Positions 576 through 56,861 of a DNA stretch of 64,000 nucleotides are shown here, piece by piece. Both the position numbers and the translations under genes were made by a program. Numbering within the stretch: position 1 is the stretch's first letter; every line of letters begins with the position of its first letter. This stretch comes from Bacillus sp. RO3 (GTDB lineage: Bacteria; Bacillota; Bacilli; Bacillales; Bacillaceae_B): positions 1 to 64,000 of the forward strand of contig NZ_JAAXCV010000031.1 in NCBI RefSeq assembly GCF_012911895.1, given 5' to 3'. The notes below the pieces were generated by a model that was given only the letters and a program-made list of their open reading frames with translations, had not been told where the DNA came from and searched no databases.

Positions 576-2618
576 ATGGAGTTTCCAACAATATTGTGCG
601 GCCCGATTGTTCGCAGGGTTGAGCCGGCACATGTGTTCATTTGGATCGTGTTAAGTAAGCCATATGATATTAGAGCGGAGATAGTTGAAATCAATCGGGT
701 AAAGGAGTCACAGAGTTTACACTATATAAGCATGAACTGCGAAACAGAGTCTAAGACAGTTCAAGCCGGAAAGAATGTATATATAAGCTTGGTGAAGATT
801 TCTCCCCAAACCGGATCTTTTCCAACAGATCAGTTATTGGGGTACAATTTAGTGTTTGAAAATGGTGTCGAATCATTGGACCTGGGAAGCTTTGACCTCC
901 TTTCCCCTTCTCACCCACATTCAATCGTCTATCAACACCTCGCCTATCCTACCTTCTATATTAATGATGGAATTCCTTCGAATATTCTATACGGTTCCTG
1001 CCGGAAGCTTCACGGTTTGGGAACAGATGTATTAGCGAAAACGGACGAGGCCATCGCTTCTTCATATAATCATCCTGCTCGGCCTTCCTCCCTGTTTCTA
1101 ATGGGTGATCAAATCTACGCGGACGATGTGGCGGATCCCCTGTTCACCATCATAACCAGGTTCGGCAAGATACTGATGGGACAAGAAGAGGACCTCGGCG
1201 CGGTTGACTCCCGCTTGAATGAAGCGCCTTTTAGACAGGGAATTCAACAGATCAATGGACGGCAGTATATTACAGAGCATTTCTGTCAATTCACTTCCAT
1301 GAAAGCCCCTAATCATTTGTTAAGCTTCAGTGACTATGCCGTCATGTATATGATGTCTTGGAGCCCATCATTATGGGAGCTGGCTCATAAGGAAAGGATG
1401 TTCGGCACCTTTCAAGAAGCTTTGGCTAAGAATGATATCTACTTTGCCTATAAAGATCGTCAAAGCAAGAAGCATAAAGCCGAATACCGAAAGCTTCAAC
1501 AGCGTTATGAGGAGCAGGTGAAGGAATTAGCCCAGGCAGAGAAGGCTCTATACTCTGTCAGAAGAGTACTGGCTAATACTCCAACCTATATGATGTTTGA
1601 TGACCACGATCTTACGGATGATTGGAATCTGTCAAAGGATTGGAAAACGCGGGTATGGAACGCCCCTTTAGGGAGACATGTCATCAGTAATGGACTGGCA
1701 GCTTATTGGCTTTTTCAAGGGTGGGGAAATGAACCAAATTCGTATACGCATCTTGGGGAGGTTACACAGGACTACCTGGACACGCTTCTTCCTGGATCAC
1801 TTCCCCACTCTGAATGGGTACATTCCCTGTGGAACTATGATTCCTGGCATTTTACCACTCCCACTAAACCTAAAGCGGTCTTTCTTGATACAAGGACTGA
1901 GCGGGGATATGCAATTAAACCGAAACCTCTGAAAGTCGGTAAACGAATAGATGAAGAACCCAGTAGTCCTAATCTTCTGCACCAGGAAGGATGGAACCGT
2001 GTCTCGACTAAACTGGCAGCTTCCGGATGGCACGAAAAGGAACCCTTGATCATCGTATCTCCCTCCCCCCTTTATGGAATCGGGTTAATAGAGAACTTTC
2101 TCCATGACTACTTGCTTCCTCTCAGGACATTCGGGTTACCTGTAGAAAGCAACTTTGATTTAGAAGCATGGAAGTACAATGGGAAGGGATTCAGCGATTT
2201 CCTCCATCAAGTAGCAGCCTGGAACCCAGGTGAATGCATCATTTTATCAGGAGATGTTCATTCAGCCTCATCGGTACAATCTGAAATCACCTTTGGGGAT
2301 GGACGAGAATTGAAAATCCATCAGTTTACGAGCAGCCCGATTAAGAACATGAGCTTCACAGGTTTTTCGGGTGCCATCATGAGATTTATCATCGGCTTGA
2401 ATGCAAGAGAAAGGATCAATCGCACACTTTACCGGTGCTGTACTCACGAGTATGTTCTATTTCAAGTTAAACACGAAAGTCACTTCCCTTCTGACTATGT
2501 ATGGAAGGAAACGATTCGTTACCAGCCTATTAGCGAATCTTCCATAGTGGAAACCGATAATAATATCGGATTGGTATGGGATGGGGGGACAGGCCCCTTG
2601 TCCCGGCTCTTGTTGTAA
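576..2618 (+). CDS. PhoD-like metallophosphatase (alkaline phosphatase D family)
   Basis: A 680-residue protein of the PhoD-like metallophosphatase superfamily, expected to hydrolyse phosphate mono- or diesters using a bound metal centre. Visible motifs are YGSCRK, GDQIYADD (Asp about 178), DDHD (342-345) and GDVHSA (560-565), in the order typical of the family. No signal peptide is evident, so a cytoplasmic role is likely. The start is placed at ATG 576, preceded by GGGGTGGTGGG. An upstream in-frame ATG at 468 lacks a comparable site. The last residues (WDGGTGPLSR then LLL) are encoded by a REP-like palindrome, so the native C-terminus was probably altered. A strong terminator follows. The substrate cannot be deduced. 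Confidence 0.85.
   Translation: MEFPTILCGPIVRRVEPAHVFIWIVLSKPYDIRAEIVEINRVKESQSLHYISMNCETESKTVQAGKNVYISLVKISPQTGSFPTDQLLGYNLVFENGVESLDLGSFDLLSPSHPHSIVYQHLAYPTFYINDGIPSNILYGSCRKLHGLGTDVLAKTDEAIASSYNHPARPSSLFLMGDQIYADDVADPLFTIITRFGKILMGQEEDLGAVDSRLNEAPFRQGIQQINGRQYITEHFCQFTSMKAPNHLLSFSDYAVMYMMSWSPSLWELAHKERMFGTFQEALAKNDIYFAYKDRQSKKHKAEYRKLQQRYEEQVKELAQAEKALYSVRRVLANTPTYMMFDDHDLTDDWNLSKDWKTRVWNAPLGRHVISNGLAAYWLFQGWGNEPNSYTHLGEVTQDYLDTLLPGSLPHSEWVHSLWNYDSWHFTTPTKPKAVFLDTRTERGYAIKPKPLKVGKRIDEEPSSPNLLHQEGWNRVSTKLAASGWHEKEPLIIVSPSPLYGIGLIENFLHDYLLPLRTFGLPVESNFDLEAWKYNGKGFSDFLHQVAAWNPGECIILSGDVHSASSVQSEITFGDGRELKIHQFTSSPIKNMSFTGFSGAIMRFIIGLNARERINRTLYRCCTHEYVLFQVKHESHFPSDYVWKETIRYQPISESSIVETDNNIGLVWDGGTGPLSRLLL
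2578..2604 (+). repeat. REP-like palindrome copy A
   Basis: Member of the 27-bp nested-palindrome family, with outer GGGAT/GTCCC arms around an inner GGGACAGG..CCTTGTCCC. It lies inside the last codons of the PhoD-like gene and encodes its tail in the same frame as copies L3 and M2. Confidence 0.85.
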
Positions 2619-2741: not shown

Positions 2742-3084
2742 CTATAGATTGTTTAGTTTCATTTCATGATAGGATATTTTTTCTTGTAATTTCTTTTTCA
2801 TCCGGCAATCTAAGCAGCCATCAAGTAACACCAGGTTGTAATGGATCCTCACGGAATGCCATTTTCTCTTCACTTGTGACATAAATCCTGATTTCTTCAT
2901 CATCTTTTCCTCCATGTTCATAAATCGCAGGAGTCCGTTTCGGAAACTGGCAAGCATCGTCGTCAGACATTAGCCCCTGTAGTTTTGCGTCCCCACCTTT
3001 CAATGGGTTTGCCTTTATCGTACGAATTATGAAAGATTGATTTGTAACACAAATGGAACACGATTCAATCGCGACCGTATATAG
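2742..3084 (-). pseudogene. Small frameshifted hypothetical gene
   Basis: Two overlapping minus-strand frames each look coding and together read as one small protein. The upstream frame is open from about 3084 to its stop at 2821. It contains SDDDACQFPKRTPAIYEHGG and ends near REDPLQPGVT. The next frame then supplies LLDGCLDCRMKKKLQEKISY and stops at 2742. A one-base deletion near 2825 would explain the split. The upstream frame also lacks a start codon behind the GAGGTGG-like site near 3107, so the 5' end may be broken too. I do not recognise the family. The CLDC pair could bind metal. The alternative is two unrelated short frames. Confidence 0.35.
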
Positions 3085-3162: not shown

Positions 3163-3222
3163 GGGACGGAGGGACAGGTCCCTCGTCCCGGATCATAACT
3201 CTGGGACAAGGTGCCTGTCCCT
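3163..3222 (+). repeat. REP-like palindromes B1 (3163-3189) and B2 (3203-3222), opposed
   Basis: B1 is a nearly perfect hairpin, GGGACG..CGTCCC around AGGGA..TCCCT with one bulged G. B2 is a shortened copy in the opposite orientation 13 bp away. The pair forms a tail-to-tail doublet, like paired REP units in other bacteria. Confidence 0.85.
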
Positions 3223-3307
3223 CTTTCGCATTATGTAAGAAATTTCCACAAGACACGTGACCAATAAAACAAGCTGAGAATATAGTACTAGTGAAGGGGG
3301 AATTTAG

Positions 3308-4204: not shown

Positions 4205-4232
4205 GGGACGGAGGGACAGGCACTCTGTCCCT
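4205..4232 (+). repeat. REP-like palindrome copy C between amidase and RAYT
   Basis: A 27-bp family member with inner GGGACAG..CTGTCCC. It starts on the base after the amidase stop and ends 6 bp before the 3' end of the RAYT gene, so it forms one flank of that gene. Confidence 0.85.
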
Positions 4233-4237
4233 CCTCC

Positions 4238-4999
4238 TTACTTTACACGGTCGATCACACTTTTGGAGATTCCTGTTATTCTTGAGAGCTGCCTTACTGT
4301 TACTCCATCGATTTGTTTTAGTTTTTTAACTATATTATTGCGATCCTGTCTGTCCAGCTTCTGCAGCATGCTGATGGTTATCCCCCACTGGCTCAAATAT
4401 TCTTTTACTTCCATATCCGTTTTTCTTATCCTAGGATGATCATCTAAGAAATGATCATCGTTCTGTTTTTCCATAAAGCTTACATATTTATTTACTGATT
4501 CTTTTCTGTCTGTGGAGAATAATTGCAGAGGAAAGAGAATATCGATGACACCACTATCGCCCTTGATGTATTCGTGGATACTCGTCCACTTGCTTGCGAA
4601 GACACTTTTGGTGAGGCCTGCATGTAAGGGGTTTTGGTGGATATAACGGAGGACCCTGAGGAAGTATCCCGCCGTTTCTACATTCTCGCTTTTGAAACGA
4701 TCCTGAAATAGGTGTCCGCAACGATCATATTTATTGTTGTACCAATAGACATAACTGGAACTAATTCGTTTGACGGCTTCAGAAATGGTGTCCTTTATTT
4801 CTTTCACTAATAAGTGAACATGATTGTCCATCAAACAATATCCGTATAGTTGAAATGCACCTGTTCTCCTATACTTATTGACTATCTCTAAAAACCTCCC
4901 CCTATCCTCATCATCTTCAAATATTGTCTGTTTATTAATCCCTCACAGCATAATATGATACACTCCACTGCGGCTCTTTCTCCTTGCTTGTCTTGGCAT
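4238..4999 (-). pseudogene. REP-associated tyrosine transposase (RAYT, IS200/Y1-like) with internal TGA
   Basis: Reading from ATG 4999 (GAGGTG about 10 bp upstream) gives a 253-codon transposase interrupted by one in-frame TGA at codon 19 (4945-4943). The flanks GVYHIML and GINKQTIFEDDEDR match the usual family N-terminus, where this position is normally Arg (LRGIN), so CGA to TGA is the simplest explanation. Downstream the gene is intact: the HUH motif DNHVHLL (His60, His62), the putative nucleophile Tyr119 in RYIHQNP, and a C-terminal helix-turn-helix (VTVRQLSRITGISKSVIDR). RAYTs mobilise or maintain short palindromes. Here palindromes of one family lie 6 bp beyond its 3' end and about 20 bp before its start. 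It is inactive unless the stop is read through or a downstream TTG restart is used. Confidence 0.85.
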
Positions 5000-5019
5000 T
5001 CTTCTTCATCACCTCAAGT

Positions 5020-5046
5020 GGGACGTGGGGACTGGTCCCTTGTCCC
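5020..5046 (+). repeat. REP-like palindrome copy D, upstream of RAYT
   Basis: Full 27-bp copy (outer GGGAC..GTCCC, inner GGGACTGGTCCC). It lies about 20 bp upstream of the RAYT start codon and completes the flanking pair with copy C. Confidence 0.85.
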
Positions 5047-5276: not shown

Positions 5277-5296
5277 GGGACGTGGTGCCTGTCCCT
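5277..5296 (+). repeat. REP-like palindrome copy E, internally deleted
   Basis: A 20-bp derivative (GGGAC..GTGGTGCCTGTCCC) that has lost one inner arm compared with the 27-bp copies. Confidence 0.6.
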
Positions 5297-5317
5297 CAGT
5301 CTCACCTCAATCCCACC

Positions 5318-5392: not shown

Positions 5393-5419
5393 GGGACGCA
5401 GTGCCTGTCCCCTAGTCCC
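5393..5419 (-). repeat. REP-like palindrome copy F spanning the pullulanase stop
   Basis: Full 27-bp copy, forward on the minus strand. The variable triplet between outer and inner arms is TAG, which is the stop codon of the amylopullulanase (protein end VRD). Confidence 0.85.
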
Positions 5420-12111: not shown

Positions 12112-13956
12112 TTGAAGACAAAACAAGTGAAACTGGAAAACTTCTATATCGGATGTATCTCCCTTTTGGGTTTACTGTTATTTTTTATCCATATCAACCC
12201 CGAAATGGGTGACTTATCAAATTGGGTACTCATTTATACCCTTGTGGGAGCGATTCTGCTATTAAATCATTTTAATATTATCATTCCTCTTTCCGGCAAT
12301 ACCCTCTCTATGGATTCCTCCGTTTATTTAGCAGGCCTTTTTTTGTTTGGACTCAAGATTCCTTTACTGGCGCTTGGGATCAGCAGTCTCGTATTTTTAT
12401 TGATCCGCTTTAAATTGGCCTGGTGGAAGCATCTCTTTAATTTCGCCAACTATTCCATTATGCTCGTTTGCACCCATTACACGTTCTTACTCACAGGCGG
12501 GAAAACGGGGGAAACGGAATTCCCGAATATCATGCCGTACGTCCTTGCCCTCACCGTCTATTTCTTCTTAAACGTTGTGATCATGTGGTTCTACTATTAT
12601 CTCGCCCAGAAACCATCGTTGAAAACGATGATCAGAACCGCATTTCAGAAACAGATTTTACAAGAAGCCTTCACCAGCTACCTAAGCACACTGGTCCTGT
12701 CACTGGTCTTAACCATCCTGATCAGCCAGCAGCCGATTTTCGGCATATTCCTTTACCTGTGCTTGTCGGTGATGCTTTCGTTCACCTTCAGAAACTTCTT
12801 CAATTTATATAAAGAAGAAGAAGAAAAAGCAAAGAGGGATTTTTTAACCGGTTTATACAATCATGGATTTTTCAAGCTTCAGCTGGAAGACATGCTGGGC
12901 GAGAACCGCTACCAATCATTTAGCGTCGCCCTCTTGGATCTGGACGATTTCAAGAAATTCAACGATGCCAACGGCCATATCCAGGGAGATAAACTGCTCG
13001 CATTCTTCGGGGGTTTCATGGTGGAGAAGACCAAGAAGCTTCCTTACATTGCTGCCAGATATGGCGGAGAAGAATTCGGTCTCATTTTTCCTGACGTATC
13101 CAAGCAGGAAGCTTTTAGTTTTTTAAATAAGATCAGGAAAGAAGTCAACGATACGTATTTTCCCGGAATCGAACACTCCCCCCTCGGCTGTATCTCTTTC
13201 TCCGCAGGGATCGTTGAATATGAGAACGGGACGTACAGTTCATCGGAGCTTTTATCAAAAGCCGATAAGGCCCTCTATTATGCCAAAGCACAAGGGAAGA
13301 ACATGATTCACTATTACAAGGATGATCAAGTGTATCATCAGGACCGGGAGTATGCCAAGGAGATCGAAGCACTGGAACAGCAGCTGCAGATCTTTCTTTC
13401 AAAGAATGTATACACGTACCAGCACAGCAAACGGGTATTTTCCTATGCGGCGGAAATGAGTGACCGGTTGAACCTCAGCAGTGAGGAGCGGCGCACCCTG
13501 ATCCTCGGGGCCCTGATCCATGATATCGGGAAGCTTGAAATCCCACGGGATATCATTAACAAAAAGGGGAAGCTTGATCCCCATGAGTGGGACTTGATGA
13601 AAAAGCACGTCATCTATGGAAAGGAAATCATCTCATCCATCAAAAAGTATGACGAGCTCCTCCCGTTGATCGAATTGCATCATGAACGGTATGACGGCAA
13701 AGGCTACCCGTACGGTTTAAAGGAAACGAACATACCGAAGCTCGCCAGGATCCTCTGCATCATCGATTCCTTCGACGCCATGACAACAGAACGCCCTTAC
13801 CAGAAAACCAAAACCTTTGCAGAAGGCATCCGCGAACTGCGGGCATGCTCCGGATACCAATTCGACCCAGCCTACGTAGAACCATTCATCCAAATGATCG
13901 AGGAAAACCACATGGGACAAGGGGACAGGCACACTGTCCCACCGGATGGCAATTAG
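12112..13956 (+). CDS. Membrane GGDEF + HD-GYP c-di-GMP signalling protein
   Basis: A 614-residue protein with about seven N-terminal membrane helices (residues 10-225), a GGDEF diguanylate cyclase domain (about 240-400, signature GGEEF at 318-322, preceded by the metal-binding LLDLDDFKKFND) and an HD-GYP phosphodiesterase domain (about 430-600, HDIGK at 470-474 and HHERYDGKGYP). It should both make and break cyclic di-GMP, presumably in response to a membrane signal. The RxxD inhibitory site is not evident. TTG 12112 is used because the stretch before it reaches stops; the ribosome-binding site (GAATAGG) is weak. The last about ten residues (GQGDRHTVPP) come from REP-like copy G, in a different frame from the other repeat-encoded tails. 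Confidence 0.88.
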   Translation: MKTKQVKLENFYIGCISLLGLLLFFIHINPEMGDLSNWVLIYTLVGAILLLNHFNIIIPLSGNTLSMDSSVYLAGLFLFGLKIPLLALGISSLVFLLIRFKLAWWKHLFNFANYSIMLVCTHYTFLLTGGKTGETEFPNIMPYVLALTVYFFLNVVIMWFYYYLAQKPSLKTMIRTAFQKQILQEAFTSYLSTLVLSLVLTILISQQPIFGIFLYLCLSVMLSFTFRNFFNLYKEEEEKAKRDFLTGLYNHGFFKLQLEDMLGENRYQSFSVALLDLDDFKKFNDANGHIQGDKLLAFFGGFMVEKTKKLPYIAARYGGEEFGLIFPDVSKQEAFSFLNKIRKEVNDTYFPGIEHSPLGCISFSAGIVEYENGTYSSSELLSKADKALYYAKAQGKNMIHYYKDDQVYHQDREYAKEIEALEQQLQIFLSKNVYTYQHSKRVFSYAAEMSDRLNLSSEERRTLILGALIHDIGKLEIPRDIINKKGKLDPHEWDLMKKHVIYGKEIISSIKKYDELLPLIELHHERYDGKGYPYGLKETNIPKLARILCIIDSFDAMTTERPYQKTKTFAEGIRELRACSGYQFDPAYVEPFIQMIEENHMGQGDRHTVPPDGN

Positions 13957-24320: not shown

Positions 24321-24399
24321 GGGACGGGGGGACAGGTTCACTGTCCCATCATCTAAATAAATTGGAAGAGATGGGACAGTGTGCCTGTCCCCTTGTCCC
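24321..24399 (+). repeat. REP-like palindromes J1 (24321-24347) and J2 (24373-24399), opposed
   Basis: Two full 27-bp copies in inverted orientation, 25 bp apart, starting one base after the DUF948 stop codon. The pair forms a REP doublet. Confidence 0.85.
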
Positions 24400-24436: not shown

Positions 24437-25258
24437 ATGAACCCACATGGCACATATATTGAAGTAGAACCGGGAATCGAATTATTTGTGCAGGATACCG
24501 GCAGCGGGGAGCCGATTGTCTTTATTCCGGGGTTTACCTTTACCACCGAAGTCTTTACCGAGCAGGTCAAACATTTTTCCAAAACTCACCGTACGATTGT
24601 GATCGATCCCCGAAGCCACGGCCGGTCAACCATGACGGTCCATGGAAACGACTACGTCACCCATGGAACGGATCTTCGAAAGGTATTAAAGCAATTAAAG
24701 GTGGAGAATCCCATCCTAGTCGGCTGGTCATTCGGATGCCTGACGGTTTGGGAATACATCCGCCAATTTGGGGCAGAAGGCATCCAATCCATTGTCCTCA
24801 TTGATATGCCACCTAAGTCACTATCCGTTCAACAAGATGACGAATGGGTTGAAGGCCCCCTTGATGACATGGCGGCAGCCTACACGAACTACCTTCGCAA
24901 TCCAAAAGGACAGCGGGATTTCATTGCTGCCTATGCAGCCAGCGTCATGGTCCAGCGGGAACTGAGGGATGAAGAATTGAAGTGGATCGTGGAGCAATCA
25001 CTGAAAACACCTTACTATATTGCAGCCAACTTATTTTCTTCCGGACTTTTCTCCGATTATCGTGTGGAGGCGGCAGAGAGCAGTGAATCTGTCCCCACCC
25101 TATATGTTGTCGCCGAGCACTGGGCAGAAGCCGCGACCTCAAGCCTTAGGAAGCTTGCCCCTAAAGCCTCGGTTGAAGTACTTGGAGGACATTTCATGTT
25201 TTGGGAGCATAGTAAGAAGTTCAATGCGATGGTTGAGGGGTTTTTGGGAGGGGACTAG
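24437..25258 (+). CDS. Alpha/beta-fold hydrolase
   Basis: A 273-residue serine hydrolase of the alpha/beta fold. The nucleophile elbow is GWSFG (about residues 96-100). The oxyanion region is FIPGFTF, the likely acid residue lies near the VVAEHW segment, and the catalytic His is in GGHFMFWEH. The substrate is unknown; related proteins include esterases and haloperoxidase-like enzymes. AAGGAGGCAC precedes the ATG. The stop codon TAG is the variable triplet of REP-like copy K, so the protein ends GGD. Confidence 0.85.
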   Translation: MNPHGTYIEVEPGIELFVQDTGSGEPIVFIPGFTFTTEVFTEQVKHFSKTHRTIVIDPRSHGRSTMTVHGNDYVTHGTDLRKVLKQLKVENPILVGWSFGCLTVWEYIRQFGAEGIQSIVLIDMPPKSLSVQQDDEWVEGPLDDMAAAYTNYLRNPKGQRDFIAAYAASVMVQRELRDEELKWIVEQSLKTPYYIAANLFSSGLFSDYRVEAAESSESVPTLYVVAEHWAEAATSSLRKLAPKASVEVLGGHFMFWEHSKKFNAMVEGFLGGD

Positions 25259-25277
25259 GGGACAGGTTCCTTGTCCC
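25251..25277 (+). repeat. REP-like palindrome copy K spanning the hydrolase stop
   Basis: Full 27-bp copy whose variable triplet TAG is the stop codon of the alpha/beta hydrolase. Confidence 0.85.
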
Positions 25278-25338: not shown

Positions 25339-25397
25339 TATACTATTCATGCAAAAACTGAGTATGTACCTTGCTTATTAAACCTCGTTTTTATCTC

Positions 25398-25468
25398 TTA
25401 AACAACTGTTTAACCCTATAAATACCAATGTATCCATATTCAAACCGTTTAATTAAACGTTTGTTTAA
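25398..25468. repeat. AAACGTTTGTTTAA repeat, copy 2
   Basis: Box 1 TTAAACAACTGTTTAA (25398-25413) is followed 35 bp later by box 2 TTAATTAAACGTTTGTTTAA (25449-25468). Both are palindromic and follow a REP-like copy and a hairpin, the same layout as near 56.2 kb. The region lies between converging genes. Nothing else is recognised in 25469-25632. Confidence 0.65.
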
Positions 25469-25632
25469 AAACGAATGAGGACGGTCTTCAGTAATAGAAA
25501 AGAGTGTGACCCTTTCCTTGAATGAAGAACATACGAGGGATCTCGGAAAGAAGCAAGAAAAACAAAATAACCCCCTATTTACTAGGTGTACCTCATTTAG
25601 GAGAAATGAGCAGTTTTGAAAGTAAGCCCCAT

Positions 25633-25726: not shown

Positions 25727-25753
25727 GGGACACAGGGACAGGTCCCTTGTCCC
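25727..25753 (+). repeat. REP-like palindrome copy L1
   Basis: Full 27-bp copy, identical over its length to copy O at 56326-56352. Confidence 0.85.
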
Positions 25754-25785
25754 AGAGAACGGCCACCTCGTCTTTTATCATGATC

Positions 25786-25852
25786 GGGACACGGTGCCTG
25801 TCCCCCCATCCCACTTCTCACTCCTGAGACACGGTGCCTGTCCCCCCGTCCC
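25786..25852 (-). repeat. REP-like palindromes L2 (25786-25812) and L3 (25826-25852)
   Basis: Two minus-orientation copies. L3 encodes the last residues and precedes the stop codon of the RocB-like gene. With L1 they form a three-copy cluster. Confidence 0.85.
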
Positions 25853-32321: not shown

Positions 32322-33692
32322 TTGACGAAGAACTGGGTCGAACGATTAGAAACCAGTATTGGGAAAGAAAAGGTAAGCCTCAGCGAAAGTGACCTCTTCC
32401 GTCACAGCCAAGACGAATCGAGCCATCTTCCTATCGAGCCTGATGTCGTTGTTTTTCCTGAAGAGAAAGAGGATATTGTAGAGATTTTGCAGGTGGCCAA
32501 TGAATATGAGATACCCGTAACGCCATACGGCGCAGGATCAGGATTGGACGGCCAAGCCATCCCTGTTCAGAAAGGGATCTCCATGAGCTTCGAACGGATG
32601 AAAGAAATCATCTCCTTTTCCCCGGAGAATTTAACCGTCACCGTACAGCCGGGAATCACCCGCTTGGAGCTGAATAAGGAGATTAACAGAAGCGGGCTAT
32701 CCTTCCCCATCGATCCCGGAGCCGATGCCAGTATCGGGGGGATGGTCGCGACCAATGCCAGCGGGACTACCGCAGTGCGTTACGGCTCCATGAAAGATCA
32801 GGTAGTATGCTTGGAGGTGATTCTGGCTGACGGGAGAATCATCCGGACCGGAAGCGAAGTAAAGAAATCGTCAAGCGGATACCACTTATCCAGCCTCTTC
32901 GTCGGATCAGAAGGCACCCTCGGGATCATTTCGGAGATCACATTAAAGCTTCACGGCATTCCCGAGCATACCATCGCGGCCCGATGTACCTTCGATACGC
33001 CGAAAGAGTGCGCAGAAGCCGCTCACAGTATCCTAATGAGCGGAATTCCAGTCATGAGGATGGAGCTCGTGGATGCCAGCAGCATTAAACAAGTGAATGT
33101 ATACGGAGACTACCACTTTCCAGAAGCCCACTCCCTCTTCTTGGAATTCGCAGGGAGCCGCGCTTCAGCAGAGGAAGAAGCCACCATCGTCCAAGGCTTA
33201 ATCCAGGACATGGGCGGCGAGAACTGGGAACGGGCCAGCGGATCAAAGGACCGGGCCGAACTGTGGCGGGCCCGGCACGAACTGGCCTATGCCTTCCGTC
33301 ATAAGAAAGGCATGTCCGTCATCGGATCCGACGTCTGCGTCCCCCTCTCGAAACTCTCAGATCTAGTCGTCTACGCCCGTACGCTCATAGATGAAAGCAA
33401 TCTATTAGGAGGCGTCTTCGGACATGTGGGAGACGGTAATTTCCACACCATCCTGGTCTATCCTTCCGATGATCAGGCTCTGGCGAACAAAGCCGAAAGC
33501 ATCAACGACAAACTCGTGCTTAAAGCATTGGACGTTGGGGGTACCTGCACAGGAGAGCACGGGGTGGGTCTTGGGAAAATGAAGTATCAGGAATTGGAGC
33601 ATGGGGCGGCTTTGGAGGTGATGAGGTCGTTTAAGAGGCTGCTGGATCCTGAGGGTCGGTTGAATCCGGGGAAGATTTTTGGGTGGGACTGA
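32322..33692 (+). CDS. FAD-binding oxidase, GlcD-like (2-hydroxy acid dehydrogenase)
   Basis: A 456-residue flavoprotein of the glycolate oxidase GlcD / D-lactate dehydrogenase family. FAD-binding part: VVFPEEKEDIVEIL, PYGAGSGLDGQ and GADASIGGMVATNASG. C-terminal cap: HVGDGNFHT and TGEHGVGLGK (His residues expected near the active site). It should oxidise a D-2-hydroxy acid to a 2-oxo acid. TTG 32322 is 6 bp behind AGCAGGTGA; TTG 32316 is too close to it. Divergent from the gntR/TRAP operon, it could supply 2-oxo acid to the aminotransferase there. The stop TGA is the variable triplet of REP-like copy M1. Confidence 0.88.
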   Translation: MTKNWVERLETSIGKEKVSLSESDLFRHSQDESSHLPIEPDVVVFPEEKEDIVEILQVANEYEIPVTPYGAGSGLDGQAIPVQKGISMSFERMKEIISFSPENLTVTVQPGITRLELNKEINRSGLSFPIDPGADASIGGMVATNASGTTAVRYGSMKDQVVCLEVILADGRIIRTGSEVKKSSSGYHLSSLFVGSEGTLGIISEITLKLHGIPEHTIAARCTFDTPKECAEAAHSILMSGIPVMRMELVDASSIKQVNVYGDYHFPEAHSLFLEFAGSRASAEEEATIVQGLIQDMGGENWERASGSKDRAELWRARHELAYAFRHKKGMSVIGSDVCVPLSKLSDLVVYARTLIDESNLLGGVFGHVGDGNFHTILVYPSDDQALANKAESINDKLVLKALDVGGTCTGEHGVGLGKMKYQELEHGAALEVMRSFKRLLDPEGRLNPGKIFGWD

Positions 33693-33767
33693 GGGACAGG
33701 CACCCTGTCCCCATTTCCCATCCCTGTCTCTTTCACTTTTGGGACAGGGTGCCTGTCCCCACGTCCC
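33685..33767 (+). repeat. REP-like palindromes M1 (33685-33711) and M2 (33741-33767), opposed
   Basis: Two inverted full copies between converging genes. M1 holds the glcD-like stop (TGA). M2 encodes the tail of the ROK kinase. M2 is identical to copy P. Confidence 0.85.
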
Positions 33768-56130: not shown

Positions 56131-56174
56131 GGGACAGGGGGGCCAGGGGGACAGGGGGACAGGTTCCTTGTCCC
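56131..56174 (+). repeat. REP-like palindrome copy N with internal duplication
   Basis: The last 27 bp (56148-56174) are a full copy. The preceding 17 bp repeat its GGGACAGGGG start, so the element carries a partial tandem duplication. Confidence 0.75.
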
Positions 56175-56325: not shown

Positions 56326-56352
56326 GGGACACAGGGACAGGTCCCTTGTCCC
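56326..56352 (+). repeat. REP-like palindrome copy O
   Basis: Full 27-bp copy, identical to L1 at 25727-25753, directly after repeat-family-2 copy 3. Confidence 0.85.
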
Positions 56353-56834: not shown

Positions 56835-56861
56835 GGGACAGGGTGCCTGTCCCCACGTCCC
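56835..56861 (-). repeat. REP-like palindrome copy P
   Basis: Full 27-bp copy, identical to M2, ending 3 bp from the 3' end of the zinc-ribbon membrane protein gene. Confidence 0.85.

Follow-up and report, generated by a model that had tools for sequence, protein, structure and literature searches.

The closest described counterparts of the locus analysed here are the TIRYT genes, reported by Di Nocera and co-workers in 2013 to lie between GGGGWSAS repeats, in a paper which also describes most REP families as spread over the genome (PMC3733652). In the classification of Quentin et al. (2018), 20 of 26 TIRYTs were placed in RAYT/TnpAREP subclass 2.1, which is said to hold Bertels group 1; its members possess HTH-like ends, and no REP-like sequences are reported for them there (PMC6006769). 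In the main text of the TIRYT paper Bacillus comes up solely in connection with Bcr1 and in a reference (PMC3733652), a term search of Nunvar 2010 (PMC2817692) gave no mention of Bacillus, Clostridium, Geobacillus, Firmicutes or gram-positive, and our literature search, which covered text outside subscription journals, preprints and figures, found no description of the palindrome family in Bacillota. According to the initial annotation of this DNA, the pairing would define a Gram-positive RAYT/REP system; it is not the first system of this sort to be defined, the TIRYT genes with their flanking GGGGWSAS repeats having been described earlier (PMC3733652).

Here we consider a 64,000-nucleotide stretch of Bacillus sp. 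RO3 (the window), where a RAYT gene stands between palindromes composed of an arm, a GGGGACRG core and a complementary arm. According to our analysis the pairing of gene and palindrome is real and general, and stands with the TIRYT/RAYT systems. It shares with TIRYTs and TIRtrons the RAYT-like gene between GGGGWSAS repeats, a pattern which GGGGACAG fits, and the moderately abundant repeat families with many dimers or clusters (PMC3733652), but differs from them in belonging to Bacillota, in its clade-specific arms and in the confinement of copies to two chromosome zones. Inverted repeats about the gene, another TIRtron trait, are seen at 87 of 113 sites; in the window the outer copies follow it and the nearest pair does not. 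With subclass 2.1 the RAYT has in common a length near 250 aa, NHVH, FQ and an HTH-like C-terminus, whereas its Y motif is YIHQNP rather than YIELNP or Y[IV]HLNP and has more in common with the one given for subclass 2.6 (PMC6006769). Because of this motif we file it as 2.1-like and not as a member, the comparison being one of descriptions.

The E. coli TnpAREP with its GTAG REPs (4ER8) is similar in predicted fold, in HUH and Tyr residues and in the hairpin partner beside the gene, but here the GTAG foot is absent, the core lies inside the hairpin and the protein has an extra C-terminal domain. REPINs resemble the present system in their inverted doublets and single-copy RAYT (PMC3116915, PMC8049555), and are unlike it in that the copies here are zone-confined, their mobility is presumed and doublet spacers measure 4-58 bp. 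The GTAG-23 REPs of Thermomicrobium roseum differ in being of GTAG type and from another phylum (PMC3733652).

A broken RAYT gene between palindromes

The initial annotation assigned the long minus-strand frame (Table 1) to an HUH-type RAYT transposase, which is borne out by profiles, by the NHVH and Tyr motifs and by the 4ER8 fold match of a relative. The frame has an in-frame TGA at codon 19 (4943-4945), so that the window copy is broken and the gene is dead; the program-made ORF list covers only 4238-4834 of it. The open piece, 4241-4834, matches Y1_Tnp (PF01797) with 33.6 bits against a cut-off of 23. For NF047646 (REP-associated tyrosine transposase), which has a cut-off of 80, it stays below the threshold with 38.3 bits, and four intact relatives score 67.2, 69.4, 75.2 and 81.2 bits. 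NHVH and RYIHQNP are both present in the frame, N59, H60, H62 and Y119 are invariant in 77 related sequences, and identity to the intact protein of G018, a relative in the same genus, is 64%. An AlphaFold2 model, made from this intact G018 protein and not from the broken window copy, with a 77-row alignment, has pLDDT 91.8 and pTM 0.75, and its best match among solved structures is 4ER8, a RAYT bound to a REP hairpin (E 1.8e-8), which is also the top PDB match by sequence (E 0.0012). Helices 194-251 of the model form the HTH-like C-terminal extension, the region where the window RAYT shows weak HTH profile matches, HTH_23 and HTH_28 being the weakly matching profiles at the RAYT C-terminus; the initial annotation suggested that this putative HTH could contribute to recognition of the palindrome. 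By profile and by the predicted fold of its intact relative, the window gene belongs to the RAYT family.

Table 1. Coordinates of the RAYT frame and of the palindromes in the window
Feature	Position	Strand	Remarks
Single palindrome	2578..2604	+	
Inverted doublet	3163..3229		+ at 3163-3189, - at 3203-3229
Palindrome copy C, downstream of RAYT	4205..4231	+	G024 has a copy at the same place
Frame of the RAYT (Y1 HUH transposase), HTH-like at its C-terminus	4238..4999	-	translation, profiles
Palindrome copy D, next to RAYT on the upstream side, with a mutated core (GGGACTGG)	5020..5046	+	also in G024
Outer upstream palindrome	5277..5303	-	27-mer match
Outer upstream palindrome	5393..5419	-	extra 44-bp unit here in G024
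Single palindrome	13914..13940	+	
Inverted doublet (+/-)	24321..24399		
Single palindrome	25251..25277	+	
Inverted doublet and second - copy	25727..25852		+ 25727-25753, - 25786-25812, - 25826-25852; the last is a 40-bp repeat unit absent from G024
Inverted doublet (+/-)	33685..33767		left end of the 22.5-kb block common to G029
Palindrome	56148..56174	+	25 bp inside right end of the G029-shared block
Single palindrome	56326..56352	+	
Single palindrome	56835..56861	-	

The gene had been described as flanked on both sides by palindromes, and 27-bp copies are indeed confirmed there, with 6 bp separating the end of copy C from the stop codon and 20 bp separating the ATG from the start of copy D. 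When up to two mismatches are allowed, the 27-mer GGGNCNNNGGGACAGGNNCNNNGNCCC has 19 copies in the window, whereas all 40 first-order Markov controls were devoid of it, and GGGACAGG occurs 27 times against 2.0 expected. The palindrome unit is this 27-mer with its outer arms, more than the 19-bp inner hairpin. A text match of GGGACAGG to Thiomargarita was rejected as a PCR primer. The consensus over 174 copies is GGGACAGGGGGACAGGTACCTTGTCCC, in which there is no GT[AG]G foot; the core is GGGGACRG, in agreement with the original view that it is not of GTAG type. Where GGGGACAG is expected, copy C carries AGGGACAG and copy D GGGGACTG.

The two copies nearest to the RAYT have the same orientation on the window plus strand, and the two outer upstream copies the opposite one; read in the direction of the gene, the order is '+' for both outer upstream copies, then '-' for copy D and '-' for copy C downstream. 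In relatives '+' upstream and '-' downstream is the commonest arrangement, to which the outer copies conform, copy D being an extra copy with a mutated core.

A perfect 27-bp stem was considered and rejected, as Watson-Crick pairing at two inner positions is limited to 20% (7/21) and 48% (8/20) of the 174 copies. Folded as DNA, four of five elements were better than their shuffles (z from -3.06 to -4.08), copy D giving z -1.23. No Rfam family scored above its gathering threshold at the palindromes. Elsewhere in the window a c-di-GMP-I riboswitch lies on the minus strand at 2939-3023 (RF01051, 74.5 bits, gathering 35), possibly an orphan, since no minus-strand ORF of at least 80 aa lies just downstream of it, and a 126-bp segment between palindromes (25378-25503) has opposite orientations in the window strain and in G024.

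RAYT clades, their arms and the pairing across Bacillota

We searched 36 genomes of the genus, one of which, G024, is of the same species as the window strain (G000). Full-length RAYTs of clade A are found in G018 and, at 51-64% identity to its intact protein, in G000, G024, G002, G009 and G033; those of clade B, at 39-43% identity to the same protein, are found in ten genomes, with shorter relatives besides. Either type occurs at full length at most once per genome. Among seven A loci the stop-free ones are those of G018 and G002; the window strain has its one TGA, G009 and G033 have one TAA each, and G029 has fragments only. The G024 gene leaves frame near the C-terminus, which may be a sequencing error because that assembly splits dnaA and is flagged as 10% contaminated. 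The dnaA split itself (G024:C1:1010758-1012072) suggests indel errors there. All ten listed RAYT-B genes are without stops.

At six A loci the flanking palindromes have GGGAC arms or variants of these; in G018 the arms read GGGCC/GGCCC and the downstream palindrome is degenerate. At the B loci, viewed by eye in eight of the ten genomes, the palindromes read GAAGCA..TGCTTC or a variant of it with a GGGGACGG-type core; all eight have them, within 260 bp on both sides in six and downstream only in two. Copies of the A pattern have a median of 33 in the six genomes with RAYT-A versus 7.5 in the 30 without it (one-sided p 0.0012), copies of the B pattern a median of 31.5 in ten genomes with RAYT-B versus 4 in 26 without it (p 0.0019), while the crossed comparisons give p 0.33 and 0.73, all of these tests ignoring the shared ancestry of the 36 genomes. 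The two RAYT clades differ in arm type, and genomes that hold a clade tend to have more copies of the palindrome type belonging to it.

Genomes with many palindromes and no RAYT, which the initial annotation had named as evidence against the pairing, do exist in part: G003, G016 and G010 have 41, 40 and 36 A-type matches with no RAYT-A found at E 1e-3, and G019 has 68 B matches and no RAYT-B. At least 15 copies are present in 13 genomes without a full RAYT-A (among them G029, which has the relic) and in six without RAYT-B. Conversely, G016 possesses RAYT-B and no B-pattern copy, its arms being different, and four of the 36 genomes have no A match. Most A copies in G014 (G014:C1:1823785-2117986) read GGGTC...GTCCC, with the T-T outer mismatch kept in many of them.

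The association of palindrome and RAYT, proposed from the window, holds far beyond the genus. A scan of named genomes gave at least 570 RAYT relatives, and the 79 loci analysed among them span Bacillaceae to Sporomusa, Alkaliphilus, Desulforamulus and others. GGGGAC lies within the 300-bp flanks at 46 of 75 loci upstream and 48 of 79 downstream, compared with 9.4% of 1958 control windows taken at least 1500 bp from RAYT loci. When a hairpin is required in addition, the counts are 23/75 and 29/79 against 3.0% of controls, and by this strict test both sides are positive in 11 and at least one side in 40 of the 75 loci. The longer GGGGACRG is present in the flanks of 51 of the 79 loci, at 113 sites, of which 87 are '+' upstream or '-' downstream of the gene. 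It is missing from the flanks of the other 28, where, by eye, several have GGGGTCAG or shortened cores and some have nothing.

Complementarity of the arms was assessed on seven bases each side of the core, at fixed distance and unselected for pairing, one N-containing site being dropped. In 86 distinct arm pairs, which include pairs from related and hence non-independent loci, 4.16 of 7 positions pair on average, whereas 2000 shuffles gave a mean of 2.75 and a maximum of 3.24; in the 58 pairs where neither arm is of GGGAC type, the values are 3.79 versus 2.38 (largest 2.88). GACTCAA, AACACAA, TTACACT, AAATCAC and GAAGCAA arms sit on different branches of the RAYT tree and GGGAC arms occupy one large part of it, the deep branches being weak. 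RAYT and palindrome thereby appear, from sequence comparison, to have evolved together.

Doublets, chromosome zones and block ends

In the stretches of G000, G002, G009 and G029, neighbouring A copies at most 100 bp apart are in '+-' order in 49 of 61 cases, with spacers of 4-58 bp, as are 9 of 9 neighbouring B copies in G007; these inverted doublets are a REPIN-like layout. A clean empty site was not met with: inside the aligned blocks of G002 and G009 (35 of 79 and 32 of 48 copies aligned) no copy faces a gap. The copies of G002 comprise 27 present, 8 diverged and 44 not aligned, those of G009 27, 5 and 16. The presence/absence differences between G000 and G024 are two, of 40 and 44 bp, both unit changes between direct copies. 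Because no clean insertion polymorphism was found, we infer rather than observe the spread of palindromes by the RAYT.

The surprising part is the two-zone confinement. With dnaA as zero, 218 of 245 listed palindrome positions (89%) fall in two zones that make up about 17% of the chromosome and that were drawn from the same data after the fact: zone 1, from -450 to -250 kb, with 84 positions, and zone 2, from +640 to +1200 kb, with 134. Copies outside the zones include 15 of 42 B in G014, 8 of 16 B in G023, 3 of 24 A in G024 and 1 of 20 A in G014. The RAYT, placed in six complete or near-complete genomes, is in zone 1: at -391 kb in G024 (A), -407 kb in G029 (A relic), and, for clade B, at -372 (G007), -376 (G014), -294 (G023) and -404 kb (G032). 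By hand arithmetic, these six genomes also have shorter RAYT relatives (about 190-230 aa) on that arm of the chromosome, around -217 to -284 kb, and four of the six have some around -476 to -595 kb as well.

Plasticity of zone 1 is seen in the 29 of 52 ORFs common to G007 and G029, versus 40/41, 41/43 and 47/48 in three control stretches, and in the other orders in which the window genes are found in relatives; a zone-2 figure (11 of 113 ORFs) is left aside, the G029 counterpart having been covered in part. When the zone-1 stretches from seven genomes were compared, 23 of 71 intergenic ends of homologous blocks were no more than 15 bp away from a palindrome, against 4.1 expected from intergenic sequence defined by a crude ORF finder; an earlier test gave 10/20 for G002 (9.3% expected) and 5/22 for G009 (6.4% expected). 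Between G000 and G024, intergenic block ends show no palindrome enrichment (0/3, 0/2, 1/12 and 0/12). One block, of 22.5 kb (window 33726-56199), is 91.8% identical in G029, which is another species, and ends at or within 25 bp of palindromes in both G000 and G029; it was not found in the examined zone of the same-species G024, and G007 possesses it with no palindrome at the left end.

The idea that whole gene blocks are bounded by palindromes, promising in view of the 22.5-kb block and the 23 of 71 intergenic ends, is weakened, since all four ends are at palindromes in only 1 of 29 fully usable blocks, and further by the bare left end in G007, by the unenriched G000/G024 pair and by the fact that alignments can run into unrelated palindromes. 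That the copies cluster solely through local hopping from the RAYT is rejected, because zone 2, more than 1 Mb away, holds more copies than zone 1 and both palindrome types use the zones. A search of zone 2 for a RAYT relic of this type, which covered G029 1.02-1.18, 0.64-0.66 and 0.95-0.97 Mb (G029 0.66-0.95 Mb lying outside this depth of search) and G014 1.815-2.135 Mb, came up empty. As for the zones being a sink for any mobile DNA, rve-type IS copies show no concentration there (4 of 20 in the zones), though in small numbers and with three of the six genomes having none.

Origin of the palindromes and its significance

From the information above, the locus in the window is probably one in decay, belonging to a partnership of RAYT and palindrome with a wide distribution in Bacillota. 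The transposase would recognise the hairpin of core and arms in single-stranded DNA and would cut and join at the palindrome through the RAYT tyrosine; the autonomous unit may be, or have been, the RAYT with the outer '+' and '-' copies, and the doublets may be its non-autonomous, REPIN-like derivatives. Since the gene of the window strain is dead, the palindromes of the window are presumably for the most part an old population inherited in place.

A regional role can be suggested in addition, although we consider it doubtful: RAYT and palindromes would spread preferentially within the two conserved plastic zones of this genus (relative to dnaA, roughly -0.25 to -0.45 Mb, where the RAYT sits, and +0.64 to +1.2 Mb), and there palindromes would serve as preferred joints for the gain, loss and shuffling of accessory blocks between species. 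The 218 of 245 positions in two zones, the plasticity of zone 1 (29/52 ORFs shared) with its scrambled gene order, the block ends at palindromes (23/71 versus 4.1) and the lack of fresh insertions in aligned blocks would follow if old and largely inert palindromes had hitch-hiked with accessory blocks shuffled by ordinary recombination in two plastic zones, the RAYT being a passenger. We regard this as unlikely; it leaves unexplained why arms follow the clade, why doublets are '+-' and why the RAYT association reaches distant Bacillota, and the closest pair, G000 and G024, is without the block-end enrichment.

It is also conceivable, but in our opinion quite improbable, that the host keeps the palindromes as terminators, mRNA ends or protein-binding sites, with the RAYT adjacent by chance or attracted by REP-like sites. 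Imperfect hairpins situated mostly outside ORFs (a crude ORF call gave overlaps for 32 of 79 copies in G002 and for 17 of 46 copies in G009), four of five of which beat their shuffles as DNA, would suit such a use, which is at odds with the limitation of copies to a small part of the chromosome, with arms that change with the RAYT clade and with the existence of species without palindromes (the four of 36 genomes lacking an A match). An ordinary mobile IS with palindromic ends, whose whole RAYT unit jumps and leaves lone palindromes behind, would account for '+' upstream and '-' downstream at 87 of 113 sites, as in the described TIRtrons; we give this reading hardly any credence, as full-length RAYT-A or RAYT-B occurs at most once per genome, the RAYT keeps to a stretch between -294 and -407 kb relative to dnaA in six genomes and palindromes are far more numerous than genes.

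A near-constant core with clade-specific complementary arms would give 2.1-like RAYTs a REP partner, and it brings within reach of experiment an old question, namely by what means a RAYT distinguishes its own hairpin from foreign ones, for which the two clades within one genus are natural controls. Should the two-zone confinement withstand an explanation by permissive regions, it would link a domesticated transposase to sites of chromosome plasticity.
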